Shown: positions 4,677 to 27,786, counted from the stretch's first letter. The stretch is 33,754 nucleotides of DNA from Candidatus Eiseniibacteriota bacterium (GCA_030600655.1 JAUVLP010000013.1:1-33754), one strand, 5' to 3'. The notes: generated from the letters alone by a model not told the origin. Numbers and translations are program-made.

Positions 4677-5845
4677 GAGACCTCCGCACTTCCGTCCTGA
4701 TCGATCGGCGCGGCCTCCGAACGATGCGCCAACGTCGCACCGCGCCCGCGCCGGCGCTGCACGATCTCGTTTCCGACCACCACGAGGATGATCGTCACAG
4801 CCTGAACAACCAGAATGAGTTCCCTCGGCACATTGGTGAAAAGATCAACCTCGAGCGCACCGGTGTTGAGAACCCCAAAGAGAAGCGCGGCAAACAGAAC
4901 GCCCAGGGGAGAGTTTCTTCCCAAGAGCGCAACCGCGATTCCCATGAATCCGATACCGCTTGAGAAATTGTCGAGGAACCTGTGACGAAATCCCATCACC
5001 TCGTTCGTTGCCACAAGCCCTGCGAAGGCCCCGCTCAGGAGCATCGCCAGGATGAGCGTGCGGCGCACGTTGATACCGGCGTACTCTGCTGCAGAAGCAT
5101 TATGACCGACGGCCCGGATCTCGTATCCGAGTGTGGTCCTGCGCAGAATAAACCAGGCGAGCCAGACGGCAGCCAGGGCTATCAGAAACGAAGCATTCAG
5201 CGGGTTCGCAGCCGGGAGGGGAACACCGAGCGACTGAAAGAAGTAGGCCAGCCGCGGCAGCTCTCCCGCAATCGGGATCGTTGCCGTCTGGGGCGTCATC
5301 TGCCCGGCCTCTTTGAAGACGGCCACGACGAGGTAGCTTGTGAGTCCCACCGCGATGAAGTTCATCATGATCGTGTTGATGACTTCGTGGACTCCGAAGC
5401 GTGCCTTGAGATACCCGGGGATCGCCGCCCACAGACCTCCGCCCGCGGCGGAGGCGAGAATGAGCACCGGAATCAGCAGCACCCTCGGCGCGCCCGGCAT
5501 CTGCAGGGCCACCCATGTGCAGACAAACGAACCTATGTAGAGCTGACCCTCGCCTCCGATATTGAACAGACCGGCCCGAAACGCGAAGGCCACTGCCAAA
5601 CCGGCAAAGATGAGGGGTGTAGCATTGAAAAGCACAAGTCCAATGCTATCGGCGTTTGCAAAAGCTCCCCGGAAGAGAGTTAGATAGAACGTGAGAGGAT
5701 TCTCGCCGATGGCGGCAACCACCAGACCACCTACGAGGAAAGCCGCCAGCACAGCGACCAGCGGCGCCACCACATCCGCGATCTTTCCAGCCCCGGCAAT
5801 TTCGCGAACGCGTGTGGCCATGCCGGGTATCCTTGGCGAGCTCAT
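4673..5845 (-). CDS. ABC transporter permease, BMP/nucleoside (YufP/NupP-like) type
   Basis: 390 aa polytopic protein with FRAGLFNIGGEGQLYIGSF and GYEIRAVGHNASAAEYAGINVRR motifs; ATGA overlap with the upstream ATPase. Confidence 0.9.
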   Translation of the reverse strand: MSSPRIPGMATRVREIAGAGKIADVVAPLVAVLAAFLVGGLVVAAIGENPLTFYLTLFRGAFANADSIGLVLFNATPLIFAGLAVAFAFRAGLFNIGGEGQLYIGSFVCTWVALQMPGAPRVLLIPVLILASAAGGGLWAAIPGYLKARFGVHEVINTIMMNFIAVGLTSYLVVAVFKEAGQMTPQTATIPIAGELPRLAYFFQSLGVPLPAANPLNASFLIALAAVWLAWFILRRTTLGYEIRAVGHNASAAEYAGINVRRTLILAMLLSGAFAGLVATNEVMGFRHRFLDNFSSGIGFMGIAVALLGRNSPLGVLFAALLFGVLNTGALEVDLFTNVPRELILVVQAVTIILVVVGNEIVQRRRGRGATLAHRSEAAPIDQDGSAEVS

Positions 5846-7395
5846 GCCGCCCCTCCAGCCATGGTCTGCTCTCCGGAATCGTTCGCCGCACCTGTCATGT
5901 AGCGACCCAGATCTTCCTCCGTCACCGTCCCCGCCTCGAACTCCCCAACTATGCGTCCCCCGTACATGACCACTATCCGATCCGAGAGCGTCATTATCTC
6001 AGACAGCTCTGCCGACACAAGGAGTACTGCGGCGCCGGCATCCCGCATCTTGAGGATGCTTGTGTGAACAAACTCGATCGCTCCGATATCGACTCCGCGC
6101 GTCGGCTGAGATGCGATCAGGAGCGCCGGATCTTCGTCGAACTCCCGGGCAATGATGACCTTCTGCTGGTTGCCTCCGGAAAGATGGGAAGCACTGACCG
6201 ATGGATCGGCAGGCCTGAGGTCATGCTCCGCTATGAGTTCGCGCGCATGCTCTTCTATCTTCGCTACATTTATGAGACCGCGACGAGAGTACTCGGCACG
6301 GTGATGGTGCCCCAGTACAAGGTTCTCCGCCACCGTGAACTCCGGCACGAGTCCCCGCGCTTGTCTGTCCTCCGGAACGTGCGCCACACCCATGTCACGG
6401 ATGACGCGCGGTCTTCGATTTGTAATGTCCGATCCGCTCAATACAACATGCCCCGATGAAGCAGGACGAAGACCCGTGATGACGTCGACGAGCTCGGTCT
6501 GGCCGTTTCCCTGAACACCGGCTACTCCCAGGATCTCGCCTGATCGGATCTTGAGACTCACGTGGTCCAGGACGTGTGTTCCCTTTCTGCCGACCGCAGA
6601 CAGATCATTGACTTCGAGAACCGTTTCGCCGGGCGTTGTCTCTCCTCGCTCGACCCTCAGAAGCACATCCCGGCCGACCATCATTCTGGCCAGCTCTTCA
6701 GGAGTCGTTTCCGCTGCCGATATCACGCCGGTCACGCGCCCGTCACGCATTACGGTGACACGGTCGGCCAGTTCTATTACCTCTTTCAGCTTGTGTGTAA
6801 TGAAGATTATCGTGCGGCCGCTCTCGCGAAGCGATCTCAGGATGAGAAACAATTCGGAGACTTCCTGAGGCGTGAGGACACCAGTCGGTTCATCCAGGAT
6901 CAGGATATCGGCGCCCCGGTAAAGCACCTTCACTATCTCGGCGCGCTGCTCCAGTCCCACTGAGAGGTTCTCGATTTTCTCGTCCGGGTCCAGTGCAAGA
7001 CCGTACTCAGATGACAGGCGCTCGACTCTCTCCCTTGCCACCCTACCATCAATAAGGAGGCCCGCCCGAACCGGCTCTGTTCCCAGAACAACGTTCTCGG
7101 CCACCGTGAATGGATCTATGAGCATGAAATGCTGATGGACCATGCCGAGTCCGTGCTTGATCGAATCGCTCGCGCTGTGCCCGACAAGCGGCTTGCCGTT
7201 GAGCATTATGGAACCCTCGTCAGGCCGGACCATGCCGTAGAGGATCTTCATGAGCGTAGACTTGCCCGCTCCGTTCTCACCGATTATCGCGTGGATCTCA
7301 CCGCGGCGGACGTCAAAGTCAACGTCGTCACACGCCAGCACGCGCGGGTAGCGCTTGGTCACTCCTCGCATCTCGACGGCATTATGCTCGGGCAT
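5842..7395 (-). CDS. ABC transporter ATP-binding protein, tandem-NBD sugar/nucleoside type (YufO/NupO-like)
   Basis: Two NBDs: Walker A GENGAGKSTLMK, LSVGLEQRAEIVKVLYRGADILILDEPT, second-half LSGGNQQKVIIAREF. Confidence 0.93.
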   Translation of the reverse strand: MPEHNAVEMRGVTKRYPRVLACDDVDFDVRRGEIHAIIGENGAGKSTLMKILYGMVRPDEGSIMLNGKPLVGHSASDSIKHGLGMVHQHFMLIDPFTVAENVVLGTEPVRAGLLIDGRVARERVERLSSEYGLALDPDEKIENLSVGLEQRAEIVKVLYRGADILILDEPTGVLTPQEVSELFLILRSLRESGRTIIFITHKLKEVIELADRVTVMRDGRVTGVISAAETTPEELARMMVGRDVLLRVERGETTPGETVLEVNDLSAVGRKGTHVLDHVSLKIRSGEILGVAGVQGNGQTELVDVITGLRPASSGHVVLSGSDITNRRPRVIRDMGVAHVPEDRQARGLVPEFTVAENLVLGHHHRAEYSRRGLINVAKIEEHARELIAEHDLRPADPSVSASHLSGGNQQKVIIAREFDEDPALLIASQPTRGVDIGAIEFVHTSILKMRDAGAAVLLVSAELSEIMTLSDRIVVMYGGRIVGEFEAGTVTEEDLGRYMTGAANDSGEQTMAGGAA

Positions 7396-7437: not shown

Positions 7438-8451
7438 CTAATCGCGCGGGACGTCGATCTCCCCGGCGATGATCTTCGCCCTCACAGTCTCGACCGTCTC
7501 GATCATAGCTTCCGTCATGAGCTCTGAATTGTAGTCGTCCACGGCGTAGCCAACACCATCCTCGGCGAGACCCAATTCCTGAACGCCCCCTTCGAACCTG
7601 TTCTCGAGGGCCGAGAGAATGACCGCGTATACGGCATTATCTACCCTCTTGACCATGCTGGTAAGCACATAGCCGGGCGCCATGTAGTTCTGATTCGAAT
7701 CGACGCCGATCGCAAGGTTGCCGGTCTCTCTCGCCGCCTCTATGACGCCTATGCCCGTGTTGCCGGAAGCGTGGTAGATAACATCCACACCTCGACCGTA
7801 CTGGAGCAGCGCCAGTTCCTTGCCCTTCGCGGGATCAGCGAACGCCTGCGGAGTTGAACCTGCATATCCAACGGTGACAGAGACGGCCGGGTTGGCATAC
7901 CTGGCCCCTGCAATGTAGCCGGCCTCGAACCGGTGGATGAGTGGCACGTCCATACCACCGATGAAACCGAGACGGCCCGTCGCGCTCTTGAGACCGGCGA
8001 TCACACCGACCAGGAACGACCCCTCTTCCTCCCGGAAGATGAGACCGGCAAGATTGTCCGGGAGCTGTTCATTCGGTCTTGCGTCGAAGTCGACACACGC
8101 GAACCGCGCATCCGGGTAGTCGACCGCCACACTCCTCATGGAATCGCTGAAGAGGAATCCTACACCGATAATGACGTCGAAGCCCGCCTGCGCCAGCTTC
8201 CTGAGACCGGTCTCCCTGTCAGCGTCCTGTCCGGGCTCGAACTCCGTGTGCTCAATCTCGAAATCGTCGGCAATTCTCAGAAGCCCGCGATATGCGGAAT
8301 CATTGAAAGATTTATCCCCCTTGCCGCCAACGTCAAAGACCATCCCGACCTTGAAAGCACCTGTGTCCTGCGACGGAGTGCTCTGCCGGCATCCCGTCAC
8401 AACGAGAGACAGAAGGACAAGCAGAAAAGCAAACAACGTGAGCTTCTTCAT
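7438..8451 (-). CDS. BMP-family substrate-binding lipoprotein (nucleoside ABC transporter)
   Basis: Lipobox LVVTGC; VGMVFDVGGKGDKSFNDSAYRGL is diagnostic of the BMP/PnrA family. Confidence 0.93.
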   Translation of the reverse strand: MKKLTLFAFLLVLLSLVVTGCRQSTPSQDTGAFKVGMVFDVGGKGDKSFNDSAYRGLLRIADDFEIEHTEFEPGQDADRETGLRKLAQAGFDVIIGVGFLFSDSMRSVAVDYPDARFACVDFDARPNEQLPDNLAGLIFREEEGSFLVGVIAGLKSATGRLGFIGGMDVPLIHRFEAGYIAGARYANPAVSVTVGYAGSTPQAFADPAKGKELALLQYGRGVDVIYHASGNTGIGVIEAARETGNLAIGVDSNQNYMAPGYVLTSMVKRVDNAVYAVILSALENRFEGGVQELGLAEDGVGYAVDDYNSELMTEAMIETVETVRAKIIAGEIDVPRD

Positions 8452-9758: not shown

Positions 9759-11471
9759 TCAGACGAACAGGTCGGTGAACTGGAAGCTCTCGACGTCGAA
9801 AAGCCCCCTGTCGGTCAGCTTGAGCTCCGGGATAACAGGCAGAGCCAGGAACGACATGGCCATGAATGGATCGTCGACCTTGGAGCCGATCCGCTTCGAC
9901 GCCTTGACAACCTTCTCGAGTCCCTTCACTACATTCTCAAGTGCCTCTTCCGACATGAGTCCTGCAATAGGAAGCGGCAGGCCGGCCAACAGCTCTCCAT
10001 CACACACGACGGAGAGACCGCCGCGCATTTTCGAGATCTCGACCACGGCCGCCATCATGTCCTCGCTGCTCGTCCCAATGACGACAATGTTGTGCGAGTC
10101 GTGTGCGACAGAACTCGCAATGGCGCCCTTCTTCAGACCGAACCCCTTGACCAGGCACAACCCGATGTTGTCACTCGCGTGGTGCCGCTCGACGACCGCC
10201 ATCTTGAGGATATCTCTCTTCGTGTCTGCGACTACGAGACCATCCTTCACCTTTACTTTCTCGACCGTTCCGCGTGTGACGATCTGGTCGGGAACCAGAT
10301 TGATGACGCGCGCCTTCGTACCTTTCGCGGCGATGTCGAAATCCCCGGGCGCCAACCATTTGATGTTGATCGAGCTCCGAAGCTGAGGGAGAGGCACTCT
10401 CGGGGGCGGCACTATCATCTCGCCGTTCTCGGCAACCAACTTACCGTTCTTGAAGACCATCTTGATATTGAGTCGCTTCAAACCGTCGACGACAACAAGG
10501 TCCGCCCTATACCCTGGAGCAATTGCTCCGAGGTCCTTGAGACCGAAGTACTGGGCCGTGTTGATGGTGGCCATCCTGATGGCCGTGAGGGGATCGAGTC
10601 CTTCCTTCACAGCCATCTTGACCATGTGGTCTATGTGGCCCTTCTCGAGCAGATCCTTAGGATGCCTGTCGTCGGTAACGAAGAAACAGCGCGAGCTGTT
10701 CTCGCACGTCACGGCCGGGAGAAGATCCTTGAGGTTCTTCGTTACAGACCCTTCCCGGATCATGGCGTACATCCCGAGTCTGAGCTTCTCCGTCATCTCC
10801 TTGACGGTCGTGCTCTCGTGATCGGAGGCGACCCCCGTCGCGATGTAGGCATTGAGGTCTTTGCCGGAGAGACCTGGAGCGTGCCCATCGATCCGCTTGC
10901 GGTCGTGGGTCATTGTTATCTTGTCCAGAAGACCCTCGTCCTCCATCAGAACGCCGGGGAAATTCATTACCTCCCCGAGTCCCAGAACCCACTTCTCCCT
11001 GAGGAGCGGGTAGAGGTCGAATCCGCGCAGAACGGCTCCGCTTGTCTCAAATTCCGTGGCGGGAACGCAGGATGGAAGCATCATGAAGATGTTCACGGGA
11101 CTGTACTTGCTGGAATTCAGCATGTAGTAGATGCCCTCGATCCCGTGGACATTGGCTATCTCGTGAGGGTCGGCGACGACCGACGTGGTGCCCCGCGGCA
11201 CAACGGACCGCGCAAACTCCTGCACCGTCACCATCGTGCTCTCTATGTGCATGTGCCCGTCTATGAGACCGGGCAGCACGAACGCCTTCTTGAGATCGAT
11301 CTCTTTCTTGCCCTCGTAGTCACCGATCCCGACGATGCGCTCGCCCCAGATGGCGATGTCGCCGGCATAGACTTCCGACGAGAACACGTTGACGATCCTC
11401 GCGTTCTTGAGAACCAGATCCGCCGGCATCTTGCCGCGCGCTACCCTGATGATCTTCGCCAGATCCTTCAT
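9759..11471 (-). CDS. ade: Adenine deaminase
   Basis: 570 aa; LPGLIDGHMHIESTMV, RGTTSVVADPHEIANVHG, FVTDDRHPKDLLEKGHIDHMV. Confidence 0.95.
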   Translation of the reverse strand: MKDLAKIIRVARGKMPADLVLKNARIVNVFSSEVYAGDIAIWGERIVGIGDYEGKKEIDLKKAFVLPGLIDGHMHIESTMVTVQEFARSVVPRGTTSVVADPHEIANVHGIEGIYYMLNSSKYSPVNIFMMLPSCVPATEFETSGAVLRGFDLYPLLREKWVLGLGEVMNFPGVLMEDEGLLDKITMTHDRKRIDGHAPGLSGKDLNAYIATGVASDHESTTVKEMTEKLRLGMYAMIREGSVTKNLKDLLPAVTCENSSRCFFVTDDRHPKDLLEKGHIDHMVKMAVKEGLDPLTAIRMATINTAQYFGLKDLGAIAPGYRADLVVVDGLKRLNIKMVFKNGKLVAENGEMIVPPPRVPLPQLRSSINIKWLAPGDFDIAAKGTKARVINLVPDQIVTRGTVEKVKVKDGLVVADTKRDILKMAVVERHHASDNIGLCLVKGFGLKKGAIASSVAHDSHNIVVIGTSSEDMMAAVVEISKMRGGLSVVCDGELLAGLPLPIAGLMSEEALENVVKGLEKVVKASKRIGSKVDDPFMAMSFLALPVIPELKLTDRGLFDVESFQFTDLFV

Positions 11472-11539: not shown

Positions 11540-12478
11540 CTATGCCACTATGCGTGTACCGGTCTTCTTGTCTAGCGCGCGCTCGATGGACTCCGGGTTG
11601 GTTATTATGACCTCTTTCCCTCCCCCTTCGATGAAAGCGATACCGGCTCTTACCTTTGGTCCCATGCTGCCGGCCGGGAAGTGACCTTCATCGAGATACC
11701 TGTTCGCTTCAGCAACGGTCATCATGTCCAGTGGGATCTCCTCAGTCGTACCGAAGTTGAGTACGACCTTCTCAATGTCGGTCGAGATAACAAGAAGTTC
11801 CGCACCTATGTCATTCGCCAGTAGTCGTGAAGCGTGGTCCTTGTCGATGACGGCTTCGACACCGCTGAGACCTGCTTCGTCCTCGACGACCGGAATGCCC
11901 CCACCTCCTACGGCGATAACAATGGATCCGACTTGAAGCAGTGCCTTGATCGAGCGCGCTTCTACGACACGATGCGGGATCGGCGATGCCACAACTCGTC
12001 GCCATCCACGATTGGCATCCTCCACGATATCCCACCCGTCATCTTCCCTGCGTCTTTCAGCTTCCTCCATCGTGTAGAACGGCCCGATCGGCTTGGCCGG
12101 CTTCCGGAATGCAGGATCGTCCCGGTCGACCACGACCTGTGTTACAACCGACACGACCTCCTTGTCGATTCCCCTCTTGCGAAGCTCCCTGCCGAGGACC
12201 TGTTGGATCATGTATCCCATGGCGCCCTGCGAATCCGCGCCACAGGTGTCCAGAGGAAGGTTGGGCAGAACGGAGGAAGCCATCTCGGCTCTCAGGAGAA
12301 TATTCCCGACCTGAGGGCCGTTGCCGTGCGTGATGACAACGTCCCACCCCTTCTCTATCATGCCGGCGATGTGACGACCGGTCTCCGCAGCATTCTCGAA
12401 CTGCTCGGAAATCGTGCCGCGTTGGCCGGCCTTGGTAATGGAGTTGCCGCCGATGGCGACAACAGCAAGTTTGCTCAT
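11540..12478 (-). CDS. arcC: Carbamate kinase
   Basis: VVAIGGNSI, VVITHGNGPQVGNILLR, CGADSQGAMGYMIQQ, VIDKDHASRLLANDIGAELLVISTD. Confidence 0.95.
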   Translation of the reverse strand: MSKLAVVAIGGNSITKAGQRGTISEQFENAAETGRHIAGMIEKGWDVVITHGNGPQVGNILLRAEMASSVLPNLPLDTCGADSQGAMGYMIQQVLGRELRKRGIDKEVVSVVTQVVVDRDDPAFRKPAKPIGPFYTMEEAERRREDDGWDIVEDANRGWRRVVASPIPHRVVEARSIKALLQVGSIVIAVGGGGIPVVEDEAGLSGVEAVIDKDHASRLLANDIGAELLVISTDIEKVVLNFGTTEEIPLDMMTVAEANRYLDEGHFPAGSMGPKVRAGIAFIEGGGKEVIITNPESIERALDKKTGTRIVA

Positions 12479-12487
12479 TTACTCCTC

Positions 12488-13495
12488 CTACCCCATCGTC
12501 AAAGCCATGATGGCCTTCTGGGCATGCAGTCTGTTCTCAGCTACATCGTAAATGATCGAACGCTCTGCATCGCAGACAGCGTCGTCCGCCTCGTTTCCGC
12601 GATCGATCGGCATCGGATGAATGAAGGCGGCATCGTGTGTCCGAGCCATCCGCTCCGTGGTTGCACGCCAATCCTTGTGCTTGGCGGAGAGCTCCTGCTC
12701 GCCCTCGCGGCCAAGCTCGTAGCGCTTGGGGTGCATCCAGTGGCGCGAGTAGACGACATCAACGCCGTCGTATGCAGCATCCTGATCGTGCGTGACCTCG
12801 AACGTCGTACCCGCGGCCGCACAGTTGGCCTTCGTCGTTTCGATAACGTCGGGGTCGATCTCGAAGCCTTCCGGGTACGCCATGCGCACGTTCATACCGA
12901 GCCGCGAGTTGATCACGATGCTCTCCTGCACGGAGCTCCACGATCTGACCATCGGCGAGTAGCCCCAGATCTGGAGCAGTGTTTTCCCTCTCGTGTCTCC
13001 GATGCTCTCCCGCATCCCCATGACATCGGCTAGTCCCTGGCACGGGTGGAACATGTCGTGCGCCATGCTGATAATGGGAACGGTCGCCACGTCGGCGAAG
13101 TCCCGAAGGAACTTGTCACCATCACCGTACTTCTCGACCGAATCCTCGAGAATCCGGATGCCTATGCCGACACCGTAACGACTCATCACGCCGGCCGTGT
13201 CCTTCATGACCTCCCCACTCTGCGTCTTGCTCTTGAGCCGGAGGTTCTTGGTCTCGAGAAACTGCGCGTGCCCACCCAGCTCCGTCGCCGCCGCCTCAAA
13301 CGACTGGCGTGTCCTCAACGACGAGTTGTAGAACATGAGCATGAACGTCTTGTGCCGGAGGATTGCAGCGTGCTCTTCACTGTACCGCTCCTTCTTCATC
13401 TTCGCGCCAAGCTCAAGCGTCGCCTCCAGCTCCTCAACGCTCCAGTCCTGAGTACAGATGAGATCTCGGCCTTTGAGATTCACTGCCATCATCAA
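12488..13495 (-). CDS. Knotted-type carbamoyltransferase (YgeW/AOTC/SOTC-like), paralog 1 with HPMP in place of HCLP
   Basis: FYNSSLRTRQSFEAAATELGG carbamoyl-phosphate loop, MFHPCQGLAD, FIHPMPIDRGNEADD, AENRLHAQKAIMALTMG. Confidence 0.88.
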   Translation of the reverse strand: MMMAVNLKGRDLICTQDWSVEELEATLELGAKMKKERYSEEHAAILRHKTFMLMFYNSSLRTRQSFEAAATELGGHAQFLETKNLRLKSKTQSGEVMKDTAGVMSRYGVGIGIRILEDSVEKYGDGDKFLRDFADVATVPIISMAHDMFHPCQGLADVMGMRESIGDTRGKTLLQIWGYSPMVRSWSSVQESIVINSRLGMNVRMAYPEGFEIDPDVIETTKANCAAAGTTFEVTHDQDAAYDGVDVVYSRHWMHPKRYELGREGEQELSAKHKDWRATTERMARTHDAAFIHPMPIDRGNEADDAVCDAERSIIYDVAENRLHAQKAIMALTMG

Positions 13496-13506
13496 AACCC
13501 CTCTAT

Positions 13507-14559
13507 CTAGACATCCATCGTCAGGGCCATGATGGCCTTCTGTACGTGAAGTCTGTTCTCAGCCTCGTCAAACACTACCGAATTCGGACCGTCGATGACC
13601 TCATCGGTCACCTCGAATCCCCGGTCACACGGCAGGCAGTGCATATATATCGCGTCAGGCTTTGCGAGCTTCATCTTCGCAGCGTCGCAGATCCAGTCCT
13701 TGTTGGCGTCGAAGAGCTCCTGCGTCTTCTCCATCATCGGCGCGTCGGCGATCGGCGGAATGAAGTGCTTCGAAGTCCACGCCTTCGGGTAAACGACATC
13801 GGCGTCCTTGAAAGCCTCTTCCATGTTGTTCGTTATCTCAAACGAACCGCCGGACTCCTCGGCGCGCTTGCGCGTCGCAGCGAGAACATCATCGTCAAGC
13901 TCGAGCCCCTTGGGATGCGCCAGAACCACATCACAACCGACGGTGGCGGCTGCGATCACTGCGCTGTGAGGAACCGACAGTGGCTTGTGAACGCTCGGGC
14001 TGTAGGCCCAGCTCATCACGAACTTCTTCCCCTTGAAACCGCCGCAGTGTTCTTTGACGGTAAGGATGTCGGCCATACCCTGGCAGGGATGGTAGATGTC
14101 ACACTCCATGTTGATGATGGGAACGCGCTCGGCCCAGTGTGCGAACTCACGCACTATGCGGTTGGCCTTGCCGTTGACCCAACCGACGGGATCCCCGTAT
14201 ATCCGGATGGCCATGCCGTGCCCCATGCGGTCGAGCACACGCGCCACATCCGAGATACGCTCGGTCGAGTAGGCGACCTCTTCGCCCTCGAGCACAGGCA
14301 TGTAGATCTTGTTGGGATCGAGGAAATGCGCGTGGCCACCCATCTGCGTCATCCCCGCCTCGAAACTGTTTCTCGTTCTCAGAGATGAGTTGTAGAAGAT
14401 CATGAAGAGTGTCTTGTCCTCAAGGTACTTGTGAGAACGCCCCGACTTAAACTTCTCCTTGAGCTCCGCCGAAAAATCGAGAATGAATTCTATCTCTTCC
14501 CTCGTGTAGTCCAGAAGTGTGATGAAATCTCTGCCCCTGAAGTCTTTCGTACTGAACAC
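13507..14559 (-). CDS. Knotted-type carbamoyltransferase (YgeW/AOTC/SOTC-like), paralog 2
   Basis: FYNSSLRTRNSFEAGMTQMGG, IYHPCQGMAD, KFVMSWAYSPSVHKPLSVPHS and NNMEEAFKDADVVYPKAW (close to remembered YgeW), YMHCLPCDRG. Confidence 0.9.
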   Translation of the reverse strand: MFSTKDFRGRDFITLLDYTREEIEFILDFSAELKEKFKSGRSHKYLEDKTLFMIFYNSSLRTRNSFEAGMTQMGGHAHFLDPNKIYMPVLEGEEVAYSTERISDVARVLDRMGHGMAIRIYGDPVGWVNGKANRIVREFAHWAERVPIINMECDIYHPCQGMADILTVKEHCGGFKGKKFVMSWAYSPSVHKPLSVPHSAVIAAATVGCDVVLAHPKGLELDDDVLAATRKRAEESGGSFEITNNMEEAFKDADVVYPKAWTSKHFIPPIADAPMMEKTQELFDANKDWICDAAKMKLAKPDAIYMHCLPCDRGFEVTDEVIDGPNSVVFDEAENRLHVQKAIMALTMDV

Positions 14560-14642: not shown

Positions 14643-15503
14643 TCAGTCTCTCAGACACATTTCCTCAAGCGACGACGCCGTCAGTGATTCCACGAGCATT
14701 GTTCTGTACTCGGCCGTCGCCCTCACATCGTCTATCGGACTCGCCACCTCGACAGCGAGTTGCGCCACTGCCTTCACAAGCTCCGGTTGGTCATTCGAAG
14801 TCACCCACTCCGACTCGAAGTGCTCCTCGGCCGCCCTCGCGCGCACCACTGTCGGAGCAACCGAACCGAAGGCTAATCGTACTGTTGCCGTCCCGGGATC
14901 GAACGTAGCCCCGATCGAGACTATTGCGATGGCAAGCGCGTTACGCTGCCCGACCTTACGATAGTAGCTGCGGGCTCCAGCGTCGGGCAGGTCGAACGAA
15001 ACCCCGGCAATGAGCTCATCTGCGGCCAGCGTCGTCGCTCCCGGCCCCTTGAAGAAACCCGCGATAGGAATGATGCGCTCCCCCCGCACCGACAGAACAC
15101 GCACATCGGCATCCAGAGCCGCGAGCGCCGTCACGCTGTCGGCCGCAGGCGAGGCGTTCGCTACATTCCCCCCGATCGTACCTAGAGACCGTGTCTGTGG
15201 GGAGCCAACCGCGGCGCACGCCGCAGCAAGCAATCCGACTCTCTCGCGCATAATCGGGTGCTCGGCGATCTCGGCATGTGTGGCAAGCCCACCGAGCTCA
15301 ACGCGTCCATCGGCGATGGTTATCTCCGCGTGTCCTGACACGGCGGAGAGATCTACAAGCACGTCCGGTCTCGATACGCGCTTTCGGATAAGCACGGCGA
15401 GATCCGTCCCTCCAGCTATCACCTTCCCGGATTCACCGGCGTCGGCGATGGCGATCACGGCCTCGTCCAGGCTTTTTGGATGTCTCCAGACCGGCTCGTA
15501 CAC
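14643..15503 (-). CDS. Xanthine dehydrogenase-type FAD-binding subunit (XdhB/YgfM/CoxM family)
   Basis: VIAGGTDLAVLI and SLGTIGGNVANASPAADSVTALAALDA FAD motifs. Confidence 0.92.
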   Translation of the reverse strand: MYEPVWRHPKSLDEAVIAIADAGESGKVIAGGTDLAVLIRKRVSRPDVLVDLSAVSGHAEITIADGRVELGGLATHAEIAEHPIMRERVGLLAAACAAVGSPQTRSLGTIGGNVANASPAADSVTALAALDADVRVLSVRGERIIPIAGFFKGPGATTLAADELIAGVSFDLPDAGARSYYRKVGQRNALAIAIVSIGATFDPGTATVRLAFGSVAPTVVRARAAEEHFESEWVTSNDQPELVKAVAQLAVEVASPIDDVRATAEYRTMLVESLTASSLEEMCLRD

Positions 15504-15507
15504 TGCA

Positions 15508-16338
15508 TCATCTCCCAGGCAGAAAACCCCGTGACAGGAGAGCCTCTAACACGCCTCCGCCGATGGCGAGAGCTTTATCGGAGACGGTGGCAGGATCTAT
15601 CCGGTCGCCACGCGGATCGATATCCCCACTCTTCTGGCCCTCACGGAGTTCCACACCGTCCGAGACGAGCCCGCGGATGAGCCCACCGGTCCGGGCGACC
15701 ACCGCCCTCCCCCCGACCTCACCGAGTCTGTCACCGGCCTCAACCAGGTCTCCTATCTGTCGCGTGGACTGAAAGGGACCGTTTGCCGGAGAACGCACTA
15801 TCCGCTCCTCGGTCACACCCAGCACCGCACCGGGAACACCGGTGTCGGGTTCAGCGCACCCGGATCGAATGACCCGGCCCAACCTGTGTCCACGGTTGGT
15901 CTCGATCACTAGATCCACATCCCGACCGGCTTCGAATCCCGGCCCCAGTCCAATCGTGAGAGGAGCGTCGCTGATATCGGCTCCAAGGTTTCGCTTCGCC
16001 ATCCTGGCGTCCACTACCACGTCGGGACTCAGAATGCTGAGCGAACGCCCTTCCGGATCAACGACGACGGATATCGGCTGACCCGCTGCGCTTTCCGGAT
16101 CCCAGAAACCGATGGAAGTGGTCTCAAGCTCTTCCAGTGTGATTGAAAGCGAGGGGATTTCTTCAACGGACGCACGCCCGTCGAACACGGCCTGGGCAAA
16201 AGAGACTTTCCTTCTGACGACCGTGGGGCGTTCTGCTTCGAGAACCACCACTCTGTAACCTGCGCTCACAAGCCTGAAAACGACCCCGCTCCCGAGATCT
16301 CCCCCGCCCCTCACGATAATCAGGCTGTCCTGCTTCAT
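15508..16338 (-). CDS. YqeB-like (EF2563-family) selenium-dependent molybdenum hydroxylase accessory protein
   Basis: IIVRGGGDLGSGVVFRLVSAGYRVVVLE...RRKVSFAQAVFDG; neighbours XdhC and MocA homologues. Confidence 0.88.
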   Translation of the reverse strand: MKQDSLIIVRGGGDLGSGVVFRLVSAGYRVVVLEAERPTVVRRKVSFAQAVFDGRASVEEIPSLSITLEELETTSIGFWDPESAAGQPISVVVDPEGRSLSILSPDVVVDARMAKRNLGADISDAPLTIGLGPGFEAGRDVDLVIETNRGHRLGRVIRSGCAEPDTGVPGAVLGVTEERIVRSPANGPFQSTRQIGDLVEAGDRLGEVGGRAVVARTGGLIRGLVSDGVELREGQKSGDIDPRGDRIDPATVSDKALAIGGGVLEALLSRGFLPGR

Positions 16339-17165
16339 CAGTCTCTGTCCCGCCCCTTGAAGCCCATCTTGTCCATCAGTCTCGCCGTATCTCTAATGCC
16401 GTGCTTCACTGCAATTATCTCGGCGATGACACTGACCGCGATCTCATCGGGAGTCTCTGCTCCAATGTCGAGCCCGATAGGGGCATGCACAGTGTCGAGT
16501 TCGACACGCGATACTCCCTCTGCTTCGAGCTCGGTGAATGCCTCCGTGACCTTTTTCTCGCTTCCGAGCATTCCAAGGTAGGCAGGCTTCTTCACGATTA
16601 GCTTCCTGACCCACTCCTTGTCGAACCGGTGCCCCCTCGTTACTACGACCACGAAAGTCTCTCCACTCACCTTGAGATCACTCTCAAGGAGCTCCTCATT
16701 TCCCACGAGTCGCAACTCCGCGAAAGGGAATCGTTCCAGAGATACCATCTCCGCTCGGTCGTCAACCACAGCCACGCGAAACCCGGACTGTCTGGCCGCC
16801 CGCGCCACTGCCAGACCGACGTGTCCGGCGCCTATGACGACGAGCATCGGGCCGGAAGCGATGGGCTCGAGGAAGATCTCCATGCCACCACCGCAGGCCA
16901 TGCTCTGATCGCTACCGAGATCGAATGAGAAGAGTTTGCTCTCCTTCGACCCGATCATTCTTCCAGCTTCGTTGATGACCGTGCTTTCGATCGCACCACC
17001 ACCAACGGAACCGAGTATGCGTCCGCCCGCATAGACGATCATCTTGGCGCCTGCGCCTCTGGGCGTCGAGCCATCCGTGCGTACGACTGTCGCAACAACT
17101 CCCGAGACTCCCTCCCGGTGCATTCGCGCCAGCTCTTCGTAGATATCCGCAAGCCTGAGCGCCAT
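16338..17165 (-). CDS. XdhC/CoxI-family molybdenum hydroxylase maturation protein
   Basis: STPRGAGAKMIVYAGGRILGSVGGGAIE, MLVVIGAGHVGLAVARAARQSGF, YLGMLGSEKKV, APIGLDIGAETPDEIAVSV. Confidence 0.93.
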   Translation of the reverse strand: MALRLADIYEELARMHREGVSGVVATVVRTDGSTPRGAGAKMIVYAGGRILGSVGGGAIESTVINEAGRMIGSKESKLFSFDLGSDQSMACGGGMEIFLEPIASGPMLVVIGAGHVGLAVARAARQSGFRVAVVDDRAEMVSLERFPFAELRLVGNEELLESDLKVSGETFVVVVTRGHRFDKEWVRKLIVKKPAYLGMLGSEKKVTEAFTELEAEGVSRVELDTVHAPIGLDIGAETPDEIAVSVIAEIIAVKHGIRDTARLMDKMGFKGRDRD

Positions 17166-17200: not shown

Positions 17201-17800
17201 CTACCCGCCGATCCCGTTCTTCACGGCCTCGTAATCATCAGTTTCGTCAATGTCGACCAGGAAACCTTCATCGTCGATCGGGACCTCGACGATACGGTCG
17301 GCATCGCGCTCGAGGATGTGTCTTGCTCCTGCATCCCCGTCCAGCTCTTCGAGTTCATCTCTGTAGGATCCATCGATGAGGATTGGATGCCCACGGCGTC
17401 CCGCGCTCACAGGCACGACGATTGCCGCACCGTGCGAGTGGGAATCGACCAGTCTGTCCACATCCTCGACGCAGAAGAACGGGGCGTCACCCAAGACAAC
17501 AAAGATGCCGTCCGTCCCCCACGAGCAGGCGCTGGCGCCCTGCGCCAGAGATGTCCCCATCCCGTCGCTGAACCGCCTGTTTCCCACAAGCTCAAGCCGC
17601 TCGTCTATGATCCCGGAAAGCGCCAAGCCTACCTCATCGGCGTGAGCGCCGAGCACTACGATAACCTCGTCGATCTTGCTCGAAGCAAGGAGCTTGTCCA
17701 CAACAAGCCGGATCATCGGCGTTCCCTCGATCGGGAGCAGCTCCTTCTTCGTCCCCATCCTCCGGGACTCACCCGCAGCCAGTACGACCGCTGAAATCAT
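17201..17800 (-). CDS. MocA-like molybdenum cofactor cytidylyltransferase / NTP transferase
   Basis: ISAVVLAAGESRRMGTKKELLPIEGTPMI, VVLGDAPFF, GRRGHPILI. Confidence 0.88.
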   Translation of the reverse strand: MISAVVLAAGESRRMGTKKELLPIEGTPMIRLVVDKLLASSKIDEVIVVLGAHADEVGLALSGIIDERLELVGNRRFSDGMGTSLAQGASACSWGTDGIFVVLGDAPFFCVEDVDRLVDSHSHGAAIVVPVSAGRRGHPILIDGSYRDELEELDGDAGARHILERDADRIVEVPIDDEGFLVDIDETDDYEAVKNGIGG

Positions 17801-17914: not shown

Positions 17915-19084
17915 CTAGGCCATATTCTTACGGATGTTCTCGACCGCTTTCTCGATGTTCTCCAGGGAGTTGGCGTAGCTGAATCTGAGGTAGCCTTCTC
18001 CATTACTGCCGAAGCAGGTTCCAGACAGACAGGCCACACCCGCGTCATTGAGCATTCTGTCAGCGAGTTCCTGAGACGGTATGCCGGTCTCCGTAATATT
18101 CGGGAACACGTAGAACGCACCCTTCGGCTTGAGACACGAGAAGCCCTTGACGTCGTTGAGACCGTCCACGATCGCGTCTCTTCTCTGCCTGAAGATCCCC
18201 AGCATCTCACCGACCTTGTCCTGTGGACCCGTGAGCGCCTCAGCACCGGCGATCTGGACGAAAGTGGTCGCATGGGAGTAGACGTTCGTGTTGAGCTTGG
18301 TGAACTTCTCAGCGATCGCCTTAGGCATTGCGGCGTAGCCAAGACGCCACCCTGTCATTGCGTATGTCTTGGAGTGCGCGTCCATGAGGATGGTGCGCTC
18401 CTTCATCCCCGGATATGCAGCGATGGTGTGATGCTCCCCTTCATAGATCATCTTGCTGTAGACCTCATCGGAGAGAACGATAATATCGTTCTCAACCGCC
18501 AACTCGGCGATGCGCTTGAGATCGCTCTCCTCGAGCACTCCTCCCGTAGGATTCTGCGGCGAGTTGATGATCATCATCTTCGTCTGCGGGCCGACCTTCT
18601 CCTCAAGCTCAGCGATGTCGAAGCGGAAGTCACGGTCCTCCCTGTACATGAGCGGGATGGCTTTCCCGCCGGCGAAATTGATGGCCGACTCGTAGATCGG
18701 ATAACCTGGATTCGGATAGATCACCTCGTCACCATGGTCGACAAGCGCCAGGATCGGGAGGAAGATGATCGGCTTGCCGCCCGGGGTCAGGACGATCTCA
18801 TCCGGTGAATACTGAATGCCGCGATCCTTTGCGAAGTGCTCGCATATGACCTCGCGCACTTCCATGAGACCCGCGGAGGGACCGTAGTGCGTACGACCCG
18901 CCCAGATGGCGTCGACCGCCGACTGGCGGATGTTGTCCGGTGTATCGAAGTCCGGCTCGCCTATCTCCAGATGAACGATATCGCGTCCCTGTGCTTCGAG
19001 CGCCCTCGCTTTCGCCAGCACCTCAAAGGCGGTCTCCGTTCCCAGTCTGTTCATTCTTTCTGCGAACATCGAATCTCTCCTCAT
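17915..19084 (-). CDS. Pyridoxal-phosphate-dependent aminotransferase, class I/II (aspartate aminotransferase-like)
   Basis: IVHLEIGEPDFDTPDNI, INSPQNPTGGVL, DAHSKTYAMTGWRLGY (PLP lysine), YLRFSYANS. An alternative ATG (MFAERM) lies 5 codons in. Confidence 0.93.
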   Translation of the reverse strand: MRRDSMFAERMNRLGTETAFEVLAKARALEAQGRDIVHLEIGEPDFDTPDNIRQSAVDAIWAGRTHYGPSAGLMEVREVICEHFAKDRGIQYSPDEIVLTPGGKPIIFLPILALVDHGDEVIYPNPGYPIYESAINFAGGKAIPLMYREDRDFRFDIAELEEKVGPQTKMMIINSPQNPTGGVLEESDLKRIAELAVENDIIVLSDEVYSKMIYEGEHHTIAAYPGMKERTILMDAHSKTYAMTGWRLGYAAMPKAIAEKFTKLNTNVYSHATTFVQIAGAEALTGPQDKVGEMLGIFRQRRDAIVDGLNDVKGFSCLKPKGAFYVFPNITETGIPSQELADRMLNDAGVACLSGTCFGSNGEGYLRFSYANSLENIEKAVENIRKNMA

Positions 19085-19176
19085 TTACCACGGACTCTTG
19101 CCCGTGCGTGCCGAAGCCCGCCCACAACCGATTCCAGGCCGCGACCCCGCGGCACTCCGCTGTGGGTAACAGCTGC

Positions 19177-20199: not shown

Positions 20200-20269
20200 A
20201 AGTGTTACCCCTGGTAAACGTCCAGTACTGCTCTGCCGCGTTCGCCGGTCCGTAATCCGGCGTCGGTTC

Positions 20270-21085: not shown

Positions 21086-21094
21086 CGTGCTCTC

Positions 21095-21520: not shown

Positions 21521-21985
21521 TCAGTCCTCCGTCCGCGACGCGGCCTCGACCGCATCCACGATCTTCACATAGCCGGTGCATCTGCAGAGATTTCCCGACA
21601 GCGCCTCTGCGATCTCCTCGCGCGAGGGATGCGGTTTCTTCGAAAGAAGAGCTGCGGCTGACATTATCATGCCGGGCGTACAGTACCCGCACTGTACGGC
21701 CCCTGTTTCGATGAACGCCTGCTGAATGCGGTCGAGCTTTCCGTTCTCTCCACTCAGTCCTTCTATAGTTACCACTTCCCGGCCGTCGCATTGCGCCGCA
21801 AAGACAAGGCACGAAGTCACGGGTTCGCCGTCGAGAATAACAGTACAGGCGCCGCACTCGCCGTTCCCACAACCGCACTTGGTTCCTCTGAGACCGAGGT
21901 GCTCACGCAGAAGCTCGAGGAGCATCGTCGCAGGCGGAACTTCAGCCGTCCGCGTTTCGCCGTTCACTGTGAGAATGACCTTCAT
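21521..21985 (-). CDS. Xanthine dehydrogenase-type 2Fe-2S iron-sulfur subunit
   Basis: GTKCGCGNGECGACTVILDGEPVTSC and GAVQCGYCTPGMIMSA...LSGNLCRCTGY cysteine motifs. Preferred start MKVILTVNG at 21985. Confidence 0.95.
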   Translation of the reverse strand: MKVILTVNGETRTAEVPPATMLLELLREHLGLRGTKCGCGNGECGACTVILDGEPVTSCLVFAAQCDGREVVTIEGLSGENGKLDRIQQAFIETGAVQCGYCTPGMIMSAAALLSKKPHPSREEIAEALSGNLCRCTGYVKIVDAVEAASRTED

Positions 21986-21989
21986 ACAT

Positions 21990-23231
21990 TCACTCTCCAA
22001 GAGCCCGCTCGACATCATTCAGCGACTGCCCTATCGCCAGCGGTTCACCAATCGACTTCATAGCCGCATCGGTGTCCTTGAGACCGCTTCCGGTCATCAG
22101 GACAGCGATCTTCTCGTCCGGCGCCACCATCCCTTCCCGAACGGCCTTGGTGAGACCTGCGAAGGCCGTCACACCCGCCGGCTCGCCGAAGATACCGGTC
22201 GCCTGCGCCAACTCGCGAATGGCCCCGATAATTTCATCGTCAGTAACGGTCATAACTGTTCCACCACTCGCCTTGATTCCCCGTACAGCTTTCCGCCAGT
22301 TCCTCGGGTGGCCGACCGCAATGCTGTCAGCAATCGTGCGAGCGCTGCACGGCACGAGTTCGCCCCCGCTCTCGAATACTCGCTTCACCGGACTCGCACC
22401 CTCGGCCTGAACGCCGATGAGCTCGGGCATCCTGTCGATGAACCCCAGCTTCAGGAACTCGGCAAATCCCTTGTATGTCCCGCTCATGATGCAACCGTCC
22501 CCGACAGGAACAAACACCCTGTCAGGAACCTGAAAGCCGAGCTGCTCGCATATCTCGAACGCCACGGTCTTCTTGCCCTCGACGAGATAGGGATTCACAG
22601 CGCAACAGCGGTTGTACCAGCCGTAGCGCTCAATCGCCTTGTTCGCAAGATCGAAGGCATCATCGTAGCTCCCGTCGACGGTGAAGACGGTCGCGCCGTA
22701 AACAAGAAGCTGTGCCACCTTCGGGCGGGGGGCCGTTTTGGGAACGAAGATGTAGCACGGAACCCTGTTTGCCGCAGCGAAGCCCGCCAGCGAGCATCCC
22801 GCGTTGCCGGTTGAGGCTGCGGCTACGGCTTTCACGCCCTCCTGAGTTGCTCTCGCCATGGCGACCGAGGTCGCCCGGTCCTTGAGAGACGCCGTCGGGG
22901 TGAAGCTGTCATCCTTGATGTGAAGGTCCGATAGTCCGAGCACACTCTCCACGTGATACAGGGGTGTCCAACCGACTCGGAGCGGCGGGGCGTGTTCAAG
23001 GGACTCGACCGGCATCAGCGGCAGATAGCGCCAGTGGGACAGCTCGGTCGAACGGGAGAGATCCTCCCTGGTGAAACGCGACGCGATCTCGTCGTAGTCG
23101 TAGAGGACATCGAGGATGCCTTCCACGCCACACTCGGGACACGTGAACCGAACCTCGTCGGGCGCATACTCACGCCCGCACTTCGCACACTCGAGCGCTC
23201 TGACTCTTGCTCCCCTCACACGTTCTCCCAT
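21990..23231 (-). CDS. Threonine synthase-like PLP-dependent enzyme (fold type II) with N-terminal zinc ribbon
   Basis: CAKCGREYAPDEVRFTCPEC zinc ribbon; DDSFTPTASLKDRATSVA PLP-lysine motif; AASTGNAGCSLAGFAA. Confidence 0.88.
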   Translation of the reverse strand: MGERVRGARVRALECAKCGREYAPDEVRFTCPECGVEGILDVLYDYDEIASRFTREDLSRSTELSHWRYLPLMPVESLEHAPPLRVGWTPLYHVESVLGLSDLHIKDDSFTPTASLKDRATSVAMARATQEGVKAVAAASTGNAGCSLAGFAAANRVPCYIFVPKTAPRPKVAQLLVYGATVFTVDGSYDDAFDLANKAIERYGWYNRCCAVNPYLVEGKKTVAFEICEQLGFQVPDRVFVPVGDGCIMSGTYKGFAEFLKLGFIDRMPELIGVQAEGASPVKRVFESGGELVPCSARTIADSIAVGHPRNWRKAVRGIKASGGTVMTVTDDEIIGAIRELAQATGIFGEPAGVTAFAGLTKAVREGMVAPDEKIAVLMTGSGLKDTDAAMKSIGEPLAIGQSLNDVERALGE

Positions 23232-23234: not shown

Positions 23235-24644
23235 CTATATCCGGCTCCAGAGATCGCGCGCCAGCTCTCTCGCCCGCGCCGCCGTGCCTGATGCATCAAC
23301 CGTTGTGAACTCCCGGTCCCGCATGACATCCCGCCCACCGATGATCACCGTCTCGACCATCCATCCGGTCAGGCCGAATATCACATGTCCTGTGAAGTTC
23401 CTCGCCTCGAGCGGAGTCGGGGGATCGTAGTCGAGGACAATAATGTCCGCGAGCGATCCGACTGAGAGCTCGCCGACCGTACCGTTCACAAGGCGAGACC
23501 CGATCACCGCGTTGTTCCTCAGGCAGAGCCGCTCCGCGACATCGTGCCCCGCCCGGGGGTCACCTGCCTGGTGCCGGTGGATCAGGTTGGCAACCTTCAT
23601 CTCGTCGAACATGCTCCCTGTGAATCCATCCGTCCCCAACCCGACAAGGACTCCCGCCTCAAGCATCCCCGGGACATCAGCGCATCCGACTGCATTGTTC
23701 ATATTGGACTGCGGGTTGTGAACGACGATCGTCCCCGTGTCTATCAGGATATCCCGCTCGTGCTCACTGATGTGAATGCAATGCGCCGCGATCGTTTTCT
23801 TTCCCAGGATGCCGTGCTCGTGCAGTCGCTCGGCAACACGCTTCCCGCAGCGCTTGAGACTGTCCTCAACATCCGCCTGATCCTCCGCCACGTGTATATG
23901 ACAACCGACGCCGGCATCCCCGGCGATTCCCCCGGCCCGGTCCAATGTATCGTCATCAACGGTGAAACTCGCGTGGAGTCCGACGCTTGCCGTCAGGAGC
24001 CCCACACCGTCCTCAGCGCAGTCGTCGTCAGCACCACGGTCGCCAGTACTGCCGCCCGTGGATCCCGATGATTCCGCTGACGCCACCAGCTCCCGGATAA
24101 AGGCCTCGCTCTCCGCCAGCCCCTCTTCCCGCTTCGTCTCTCCGTTTCTGTCGGTGATCTCGAAGCAGAGATTCGCGCGTATCCCGATCTCCTCAAGGGC
24201 CTCCGCCACATTGGCCAGGCTGTCCGTGACGCTCACCTGGCTGGCATGGTGATCTATGATGGTCGTCGTGCCGCTCCGCACGAGATCGAGGGCGCCTGCA
24301 GCCGCCGAGTACCACGTATGCTCGTGCGTCAGGGCGCGATCGAGCTTCCACCAGAGGTGTTCAAGTATCTCGACAAAATTGGCCGACGGTGCAATGTCGG
24401 CCATAAGGCCACGCGCCAATGCACTGTAGAGGTGTGTGTGCGCATTTATGAACCCCGGCATGATCAGCTTGCCGCTCGTGTCGATCACTTCAGCGCCATG
24501 CTGCCCGGAGACAACCTCCGAGGCAGGACCAACTGCCACGATTCGATCACCATCAAAAGCGACCGCACCACCTTTTATGACCACCGGTTCAGGCCCGCCC
24601 GTAAATACGGTCCCTCCGCTCAGGATTCTCGTGACATCAGGCAA
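23235..24644 (-). CDS. ssnA: SsnA-type amidohydrolase
   Basis: IMPGFINAHTHLYSALARGLMADI, FVEILEHLWWKLDRAL, VVHNPQSNMNNAVGCADV, GLGTDGF. Likely TTG start at 24644 with AGGAG 7 nt upstream; the supplied ORF extends to 24710. Confidence 0.85.
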   Translation of the reverse strand: MPDVTRILSGGTVFTGGPEPVVIKGGAVAFDGDRIVAVGPASEVVSGQHGAEVIDTSGKLIMPGFINAHTHLYSALARGLMADIAPSANFVEILEHLWWKLDRALTHEHTWYSAAAGALDLVRSGTTTIIDHHASQVSVTDSLANVAEALEEIGIRANLCFEITDRNGETKREEGLAESEAFIRELVASAESSGSTGGSTGDRGADDDCAEDGVGLLTASVGLHASFTVDDDTLDRAGGIAGDAGVGCHIHVAEDQADVEDSLKRCGKRVAERLHEHGILGKKTIAAHCIHISEHERDILIDTGTIVVHNPQSNMNNAVGCADVPGMLEAGVLVGLGTDGFTGSMFDEMKVANLIHRHQAGDPRAGHDVAERLCLRNNAVIGSRLVNGTVGELSVGSLADIIVLDYDPPTPLEARNFTGHVIFGLTGWMVETVIIGGRDVMRDREFTTVDASGTAARARELARDLWSRI

Positions 24645-24725
24645 TCTCGCACTCCTGGATAAACCAAGACAACGGTTCGACACGCTCCGCGCCGACACCC
24701 CGCATCGCACCTGAATCCCTAGAAT

Positions 24726-26391: not shown

Positions 26392-27786
26392 CTACTCCAC
26401 CCGATGCCCCGGTCTCTGACAGACCTTGCCGCGTCTGATGAACGATCCGAGCTCGTGGCTTCCCACGAGCTCGCGGTCTCTTACGACCCAGTTGCCGCGA
26501 ACCATTGTACAGACGGGCCAGCCTGTGACCTGCAAGCCATCGTAGGGCGAGTAGTCGGTGTACCCGTGGAGAACGTCCGGAGAGATCGTTACCTTGAGAT
26601 CCGGATCGAAGATGACAATGTCAGCATCTGTTTCGACCGAGAGCGTTCCCTTCTCCGGACAGAGCCCGAAGATCTCAGCAGGATGCGTACTCAGAAGATC
26701 GACGAGCTGATTCTCCGTCAGCCTCCCCTCCCGGACTCCGTACTGCCACATGAGCGGAAGAAGCGTGCCTATACCGGGAACACCCATCGGAATCTTCCTG
26801 AAGTCCGCTGCCCCCTCATCCTTGGCTTCCGCCATGAACTCGGCGTGATCGGTTGCCACCACCTGGATCAGCTCCTCTTCGAGCGCGTCCCAGAGCTCCT
26901 CGCGATGAGCCTTGGAGCGGATGGGCGGACAGGTTGCGAAGCGCTGGCCGTCGGCGGTCGCGAGCTTCTCCTCGTCGAGAAGCAAGAAGTGCGGACAGGT
27001 CTCCGCGAAAACGTCGATCCCGGCATCCTTGGCCTCGGCTATCGTCTTGGCAGCCTCACCTGAGGAAACATGCACAATGTAGACAGGGGCACCGGCATCG
27101 CACGCCATTCTGATGACGGAGGCGACAGCTTCTCCTTCCACGTAACCGGGCCTGGTCTCGGCGTGATCGGCCGCTGACAACCTTCCCTGATTGGTCAGCC
27201 GGGCGATGCGGCTTTCGATCATCCATTCGTTCTCGCAGTGCACTTCGATCAACCCGCCGTGTTGACCGGCGAGGAGGAATGCCTGGTAGAGTTCATCCTC
27301 GCTGCTGGCCAGTCCCGCATCAGAGTAGACGGTGTACATCTTGAAGGATGGGATGCCTGCCTCGATCATCTGGGGGATCTCATCGTCCTCCCGGTCTTCC
27401 CACCGAACGAGCGACGCATGGAGGCCGTAGTCCACGTAGCATTGTCCGTTCGCCCGCGCCTGACGGGCGTTGACAGCTTCCATGAGCGACTCGCCGACGC
27501 GCGGTGTTACGTATGTAAGAAATGATGTCACGCCGCCGAACGCAGCCTCGCGTGTTGTTGCACGGAAATCGGAAGACGCGTGTCCTCGGAGTTCCAGACC
27601 GACGTGAACGTGCGCGTCTATGACACCGGGGAGAACAAGTTTGCCCGAAGCATCGTAGACGTCTGCGCCCGCCGGCGCAGCCAGGTCGATCCCGATCTCC
27701 ACGATCCTGCCATCTTCAACCAAGAGGTCGGCCGCGTAGGAATCGATCGCTGTGACGAGCTTTCCTCCCTTGATCATGACTGCCAT
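26392..27786 (-). CDS. Dihydropyrimidinase/D-hydantoinase family cyclic amidohydrolase (HyuA-like)
   Basis: LPGVIDAHVHVGL, PSFKMYTVYSD (carboxylysine region), EVHCENEWMI, VYIVHVSSGEAAKTIAEAK, ETCPHFLLL. Confidence 0.92.
   Translation of the reverse strand: MAVMIKGGKLVTAIDSYAADLLVEDGRIVEIGIDLAAPAGADVYDASGKLVLPGVIDAHVHVGLELRGHASSDFRATTREAAFGGVTSFLTYVTPRVGESLMEAVNARQARANGQCYVDYGLHASLVRWEDREDDEIPQMIEAGIPSFKMYTVYSDAGLASSEDELYQAFLLAGQHGGLIEVHCENEWMIESRIARLTNQGRLSAADHAETRPGYVEGEAVASVIRMACDAGAPVYIVHVSSGEAAKTIAEAKDAGIDVFAETCPHFLLLDEEKLATADGQRFATCPPIRSKAHREELWDALEEELIQVVATDHAEFMAEAKDEGAADFRKIPMGVPGIGTLLPLMWQYGVREGRLTENQLVDLLSTHPAEIFGLCPEKGTLSVETDADIVIFDPDLKVTISPDVLHGYTDYSPYDGLQVTGWPVCTMVRGNWVVRDRELVGSHELGSFIRRGKVCQRPGHRVE

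Follow-up and report, generated by a model that had tools for sequence, protein, structure and literature searches.

In the reductive (anaerobic) uric-acid pathway of Escherichia coli, SsnA opens the dihydro-yanthine ring and HyuA yields 2,3-diureidopropionate; YgeW then phosphorolyses one ureido group to carbamoyl phosphate, from which ATP is formed, and YgeY hydrolyses the other (PMC12507026). SsnA has been proposed as a marker of this pathway (PMC12507026). The pathway chemistry has been described (PMC12507026; PMC12990295), and the order and the enzymes of ureido removal have been named as an open question of this newly solved pathway, which ureido group leaves first being disputed (PMC12990295). 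For YgeW and acetylornithine transcarbamylase (AOTC), the positions that bind the second substrate have been named, and the side chains of the HxLP motif normally make no substrate contact (PMC4581275).

In this work, we analysed a stretch of 33,754 nucleotides (the window) from Candidatus Eiseniibacteriota bacterium (GCA_030600655.1, JAUVLP010000013.1:1-33754), which makes up an entire contig (G000:C59) in a 2.6 Mb draft genome that is 99.4% complete. Two carbamoyltransferase genes lie side by side on its minus strand, 11 nt apart: paralog 1 (P1; 12488..13495; PF02729/PF00185) and paralog 2 (P2; 13507..14559). Both proteins match the Pfam models OTCace_N and OTCace far over the gathering cut-offs and share 42% identity. 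They have in common FYNSSLRTR, the matching pair HPCQGLAD/HPCQGMAD, and the C-terminal ending AENRLHA/VQKAIMALTM, and P1 carries FIHPMPIDRGNEADD where P2 has YMHCLPCDRG. Both open reading frames, their coordinates, the intergenic gap, and every motif quoted in the preliminary description of this DNA were thus confirmed. The reading frame of P1 begins with TTG and that of P2 with GTG; the real start of P1 is probably an ATG located 3 or 6 nt inside the TTG frame. Of 20 genomes in the window's phylum-level group, 17 carry the two genes next to each other, and one more has a truncated copy at a contig end. In the remaining two, both the pair and SsnA are missing. Within the genus, dN/dS is ~0.04 for P1 and for P2, which indicates strong purifying selection. 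The pattern is more than chance, since the pair is kept in most of these genomes, dN/dS is this low, and the HPMP motif is fixed in 74 of 86 P1 sequences. The possibility that P1 is a pseudoenzyme was ruled out by the low dN/dS together with the invariant catalytic residues described below.

A maximum-likelihood tree of 76 sequences, from which SOTC, PTC, and DPTC references were left out, resolved four clades of knotted-type enzymes (P1, P2, YgeW, and P3), each with support of at least 100/99. P1 forms its own monophyletic clade (100/100). The P2 clade (100/99) is sister to the YgeW clade (91/76), whose members include E. coli YgeW along with the lone enzymes encoded beside YgeY. P3 is a basal knotted-type clade and provides the partner of P1 in Caldiserica and some other lineages; overall, the partner of P1 varies among the P2, P3, and YgeW clades. 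P1 is joined weakly to AOTC (95/74, with a long branch). The pair had been taken as the duplication of one gene, but the placement of P1 and P2 in two ancient, separate clades and the varying partner of P1 rule out a local tandem duplication. The tree points instead to an old association of two ancient lineages.

Neither protein reaches the curated cut-off of any of the transcarbamylase models compared here. The scores of P1 and P2 were 123.4 and 180.1 bits against the YgeW model TIGR03316 (cut-off 500), 252.7 and 287.1 bits against the AOTC model PRK04523 (cut-off 288), 204.6 and 258.7 bits against the ornithine transcarbamylase (OTC) model TIGR00658 (cut-off 280.85), and 107.2 and 111.5 bits against the aspartate transcarbamylase (ATC) model TIGR00670 (cut-off 236.95). 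The DxxxSMG loop motif of OTC is absent from P1 and P2, and separate OTC and ATC genes are located on other contigs of the window's genome. On these scores, the genome's own OTC and ATC, and the tree, ordinary OTC, AOTC, or ATC identities were rejected for both proteins. This agrees with the earlier view that neither is an ordinary OTC or ATC, for which a phylogeny with YgeW, AOTC, OTC, and ATC had been proposed as a check; P1 and P2 fall outside OTC and ATC in it.

Relative to E. coli ArgI and PyrB, both P1 and P2 have a proline-rich-loop insertion and an extended 120s loop, with few prolines in the loop of P1. Their predicted structures (pLDDT of 93.3 for P1 and 93.6 for P2) have the same best match in the PDB, the knotted AOTC 3kzk. 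Assignment of both proteins to the knotted type is supported by these loop insertions, the tree, and the structural match of the models. Judging from the sequences compared, the P1 family appears to be an undescribed family of knotted-type carbamoyltransferases that occurs across many anaerobic bacteria and archaea, and our literature search found no account of it.

Residues were compared over 86 P1 and 45 P2 sequences. All P1 (86/86) and P2 sequences keep the residues that bind carbamoyl phosphate, namely SxRT, the beta-4 Arg, HPxQ, and the C-terminal Arg, and the SxRT and HPxQ motifs are invariant across the P1, P2, YgeW, and P3 clades. Because these residues are kept in all 86 homologues, P1 should be an active enzyme. 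The second-substrate site is different. Five residues before HPxQ, P2 has Glu (45/45) and the YgeW clade has Gln or Glu, whereas P1 has Ala (86/86). The 240s loop opens with Lys in P2 (45/45) and with Arg in P1 (85/86), and the Lys-Pro of the proline-rich loop in P2 (Lys in 45/45) corresponds to Arg-Ser in P1 (86/86). All YgeW-type second-substrate anchors are therefore kept in P2 and none is present in P1; since they are changed uniformly, P1 would be expected to use a substrate other than that of P2. At the HxLP position, P2 retains HCLP (45/45), while P1 has HPMP (74/86) or HCGP (12/86, all from Thorarchaeota), with the Leu lost. The earlier reasoning for different second substrates had relied on this motif and was partly right, but the Ala in place of Glu/Gln, the Arg in place of Lys, and the Arg of the proline-rich loop are more telling.

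Around the pair, the window carries genes of the reductive uric-acid cluster, among which SsnA, HyuA (as TIGR02033), and carbamate kinase all exceed their curated cut-offs. All of the following genes with assigned functions are on the minus strand. A carbamate kinase of the ArcC/YqeA type (11540..12478; TIGR00746, 389 bits, cut-off 358) lies 9 nt downstream of P1. The cluster also includes genes for adenine deaminase (9759..11471; TIGR01178, 663 bits, cut-off 472.5), the SsnA aminohydrolase (23235..24710; TIGR03314, 514 bits, cut-off 455.5), and a HyuA-like D-hydantoinase/dihydropyrimidinase (26392..27786; TIGR02033, 433 bits, cut-off 393); the last scores 288 bits against the allantoinase model TIGR03178, under the cut-off of 358. 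A threonine-synthase-like PLP enzyme (21990..23231; PF00291) is a candidate replacement for the diaminopropionate lyase YgeX, and its gene lies close to P1 at 28 of the 80 loci among the matches listed. A separate PLP (PALP) family of ~495 residues, distantly cysteine-synthase-like, recurs beside YgeY, SsnA, and P1/P2 (L167:5857-7350, L083:8434-9912, L039:4990-6456, and 14 more loci) and may supply the pathway with another PLP enzyme in addition to the threonine-synthase-like one.

Genes for a xanthine-dehydrogenase-type hydroxylase encode its FAD-binding subunit (14643..15503; PF00941, PF03450) and [2Fe-2S] subunit (21521..22018; PF01799, PF00111). They are accompanied by YqeB, for maturation of selenium-dependent molybdenum hydroxylases (15508..16338; TIGR03309, 321 bits, cut-off 220), an XdhC-type maturation factor (16338..17165; best NCBIfam match NF045664, below cut-off), and a MocA-like molybdenum cofactor cytidylyltransferase (17201..17800; best NCBIfam match TIGR03310, below cut-off). 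The gene for the molybdenum-binding subunit is absent from the window cluster; such genes are located on contigs C39, C135, and C212, and an XdhD-like ORF of 994 residues (575 bits, resembling E. coli XdhD) is on another contig. For YgfK, only the C-terminal electron-transfer half was matched in the window's group, and its dearomatising N-terminal half was not found there. The upper pathway is thus incomplete as seen, because a YgfK-type dearomatising domain is missing and the Mo-subunit genes lie on other contigs. Elsewhere, SsnA is adjoined by an ORF of ~850 residues that is GltD-like in its C-terminal half but different in its N-terminal half (L084:10449-13013 in G037 and L212:15422 in G118), and ORFs of similar length with the same partial YgfK match are found near SsnA in G102, G131, and G147; these may represent another kind of yanthine-dearomatising reductase.

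Transport genes complete the cluster, namely those for a BMP/PnrA-type substrate-binding lipoprotein of a nucleoside/purine ABC transporter (7438..8451; PF02608) and the ATP-binding protein of the same importer (5842..7395), the latter assigned from its position beside the BMP gene, its sequence features, and a gene order kept in relatives. The two permease genes of this transporter flank a gene (3042-4676) whose membrane-protein product looks, by eye, like a MurJ-type flippase, and the same arrangement is found in relatives. Also inside the purine cluster (17915-21517), in an order kept in relatives, are genes for a class I aminotransferase, a split transketolase with its C- and N-terminal halves encoded by separate genes, and a PCC/DUF296 protein, which perhaps serve the ribose part of nucleosides. 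Beyond the cluster (28050-33322) are genes for several secreted proteins that by eye have repeated cohesin-like segments and FlgD-like C-terminal tails.

A scan of GTDB representatives with the P1 alignment found at least 80 loci with 53-97% identity, and all locus counts given here are lower bounds. Among the matches listed, the bacterial hosts include Eisenbacteria, Caldisericota/Cryosericota, Elusimicrobiota, Chloroflexota, Atribacterota, Auribacterota, Mcinerneyibacteriota, WOR-3, Neomarinimicrobiota, Cloacimonadota, Acidobacteriota, and delta-/myxobacterial and Bacillota MAGs, and the archaeal hosts, Asgard archaea included, are Thorarchaeota, Hodarchaeum, and Undinarchaeales. Among the same matches, P1 is adjoined by a carbamate kinase gene in 53 of 75 non-redundant loci and by another carbamoyltransferase gene in 30 of 75. 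This frequent proximity of carbamate kinase points to a catabolic, ATP-forming direction. No carbamate kinase gene is nearby at the P1 loci of Thorarchaeota and some Chloroflexota, and a P2-type partner is absent in ~8 of 50 sampled P1 genomes. In Thorarchaeota, P1 with HCGP lies near genes for ODP/flavodoxin-type proteins, rubrerythrin, and oligopeptide ABC transporters (L127, L128, L136, L137, L141, L143, L148, and L168). SsnA (E <= 1e-80) was found in 44 of 50 sampled P1 genomes, whereas 12 of the 76 domain-wide genomes that lack P1 have it (Fisher p = 2e-16, which is indicative only, as the samples were drawn differently and kinship was ignored).

YgeY was not found in the window's group (0 of 20 genomes). 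By comparison, it adjoins the YgeW-clade enzyme in 8 of 8 genomes that have a lone enzyme of this clade and no P1. Among genomes with SsnA, YgeY scored over the cut-off in 16 of 44 with P1 and in 9 of 12 without P1 (p = 0.023), but with a looser threshold the difference (25/44 and 10/12, respectively) was not significant (p = 0.18). Over all sampled P1 genomes, 18 of 50 have YgeY over the cut-off. Where true YgeY occurs in P1 genomes, it adjoins true YgeW in a separate module (L083, L085, and L196-L199). A second YgeY-type hydrolase stands alone at L200-L209 and shares an operon with P2, P1, and carbamate kinase at L153, L155, L167, and L173; P1 and a YgeY-type hydrolase are also in one operon at L108. 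In the Eisenbacteria relative G131, genes for YgeY-type and RarA-like proteins (L205:4955-6268) hold the slot that P2 and P1 occupy in the window, flanked by XdhB-like and carbamate kinase genes; the rest of that cluster resembles the one in the window, and the P2-P1 genes of G131 are on another contig. A strict replacement of YgeY by P1 was ruled out, since both coexist in some operons; P1 is thus an addition or an alternative to YgeY rather than its obligatory replacement.

Based on these patterns, the cluster may encode a variant of the reductive uric-acid pathway. HyuA would produce 2,3-diureidopropionate with its two ureido groups, P2 (as the YgeW equivalent) would move one carbamoyl group to phosphate, and P1 would move the other, a step for which E. 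coli uses hydrolysis by YgeY. The carbamate kinase of the same operon would turn both carbamoyl phosphates into ATP, for a yield of 2 ATP per urate/purine instead of 1, and the resulting 2,3-diaminopropionate would be split by the PLP enzyme. The parts of this scheme differ in strength. We have high confidence that P1 and P2 are knotted-type carbamoyltransferases with a catabolic role in anaerobic purine breakdown. P2 is likely the equivalent of YgeW. For P1, phosphorolytic removal of the second ureido group is the best single explanation, with a chance of roughly one half. The absence of YgeY in the window's group implies that something else must remove this ureido group, a task for which P1 is the only candidate found next to the remaining genes of the operon. 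We infer the substrates, the carbamoyl group taken by each enzyme, and the ATP yield from these observations. The scheme with two carbamoyltransferases and 2 ATP per purine, taken as a whole, is the explanation that we favour, although we rate it as just short of an even call. Slightly more tentative still is the proposal that P1 founds an undescribed family, present in uncultured anaerobic bacteria of many phyla and in Asgard archaea, that phosphorolyses the second ureido group, such that both groups are conserved as ATP. The suggestion in the preliminary description that the two enzymes act on different acceptors of purine-ring breakdown holds as the best reading, given the purine cluster and the different second-substrate sites, and these acceptors can be specified, in the best reading, as the two ureido groups of 2,3-diureidopropionate. 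Evidence against this explanation comes from the operons that contain both P1 and YgeY, the loss of significance at the looser threshold (p = 0.18), the occurrence of P1 without carbamate kinase or P2 in some genomes, and the gaps in the upper pathway of the window's group.

Alternatively, P1 may be a catabolic carbamoyltransferase of these purine degraders that acts on another ureido compound (e.g., one derived from another purine or hydantoin), while P2 and a further hydrolase handle 2,3-diureidopropionate. In the operons where P1, P2, and a YgeY-type hydrolase occur together (L153, L155, L167, and L173), both ureido groups would already be served, and the uniform replacement of substrate anchors in P1 is also compatible with such a role. 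However, 2,3-diureidopropionate has exactly two ureido groups, and in the group without YgeY, P1 is the only candidate found for the second one, such that we consider this alternative unlikely but the most serious of those weighed here. Much less probable is an allantoin-type pathway, in which the hydantoinase would be an allantoinase and P1 and P2 would phosphorolyse the two ureido groups of allantoate. In its favour, a role in allantoin degradation was reported for operons of deep-sediment Atribacteria that combine a carbamoyltransferase, an 'allantoinase', and a purine ABC transporter (PMC6469976); the same layout is seen at L115, a P1 locus of Atribacteria with genes for a hydantoinase, a carbamoyltransferase, P1, carbamate kinase, a BMP-type ABC transporter, and a PLP enzyme; and a ureidoglycine carbamoyltransferase is known in Rubrobacter (PMC4016543). 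Yet the window hydantoinase passes the D-hydantoinase cut-off and fails that for allantoinase, P1 tracks SsnA, a gene of the reductive pathway, and the Rubrobacter enzyme is an unknotted member of the ATC branch with H(T/S)LP (PMC4581275). Based on the gene layout of L115, those Atribacteria operons may themselves belong to the reductive uric-acid pathway.

It was also suggested earlier that the two proteins form a heteromer, in which case P1 and P2 would be subunits of one mixed-chain oligomer and P1 would have a structural or regulatory role. The adjacency of the genes in 17/20 genomes and the location of active sites between subunits in the transcarbamylase family (PMC4581275) are consistent with this idea. 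It is nevertheless improbable, because every carbamoyl-phosphate residue is invariant in P1 and because P1 can lack P2 altogether or be paired with members of two other clades; an obligate P1-P2 heteromer in particular is unlikely given the ~8 of 50 P1 genomes with no P2 match. We give hardly any weight to the view that P1 and P2 are ordinary transcarbamylases of arginine or pyrimidine biosynthesis. Their best sequence and fold matches do include OTC and AOTC, and AOTC is the weak sister of P1 (95/74), but OTC and ATC are encoded by genes of their own elsewhere in the genome, no curated cut-off of OTC, AOTC, or ATC is reached, and the two genes lie in a purine cluster beside carbamate kinase.

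A distinct second carbamoyltransferase able to take the place of an absent YgeY provides a direct test of the ureido-removal question. If the two-carbamoyltransferase scheme is true, the higher ATP yield per purine would matter for energy-starved microbes of sediments and the subsurface, and widespread genes that are likely annotated as ornithine or acetylornithine carbamoyltransferases would be re-labelled, perhaps together with the 'allantoin' operons described from deep-sediment Atribacteria (PMC6469976).

Among the known systems, E. coli YgeW (TIGR03316) is similar to P1 and P2 in being of the knotted type and in its location near hydantoinase and SsnA genes and carbamate kinase. It further resembles P2 in the matching substrate anchors (Glu/Gln, Lys, and Lys-Pro) and in the sister relationship of their clades (91/76), but the terminal extensions of YgeW are missing in P2, and P1 differs from YgeW in lacking both the second-substrate anchors and HCLP. 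AOTC (3kzk) has the knotted fold and is the best structural match of both models; in contrast to AOTC, neither protein has the 80s-loop Trp, their setting is catabolic rather than arginine-biosynthetic, and P1 lacks the equivalents of Glu144 and Lys252. P1 is proposed to stand in for YgeY in removing the second ureido group, but the two are unrelated: YgeY is an M20-type hydrolase, and its reaction loses the carbamoyl group as CO2 and NH3, whereas P1 would conserve it as carbamoyl phosphate. Finally, the ureidoglycine carbamoyltransferase of Rubrobacter (PMC4016543) is alike in the phosphorolysis of a purine-derived diureido acid and in the adjoining carbamate kinase, but it differs from P1 and P2 as an unknotted enzyme of the ATC branch that carries H(T/S)LP and functions in the oxidative allantoin pathway.
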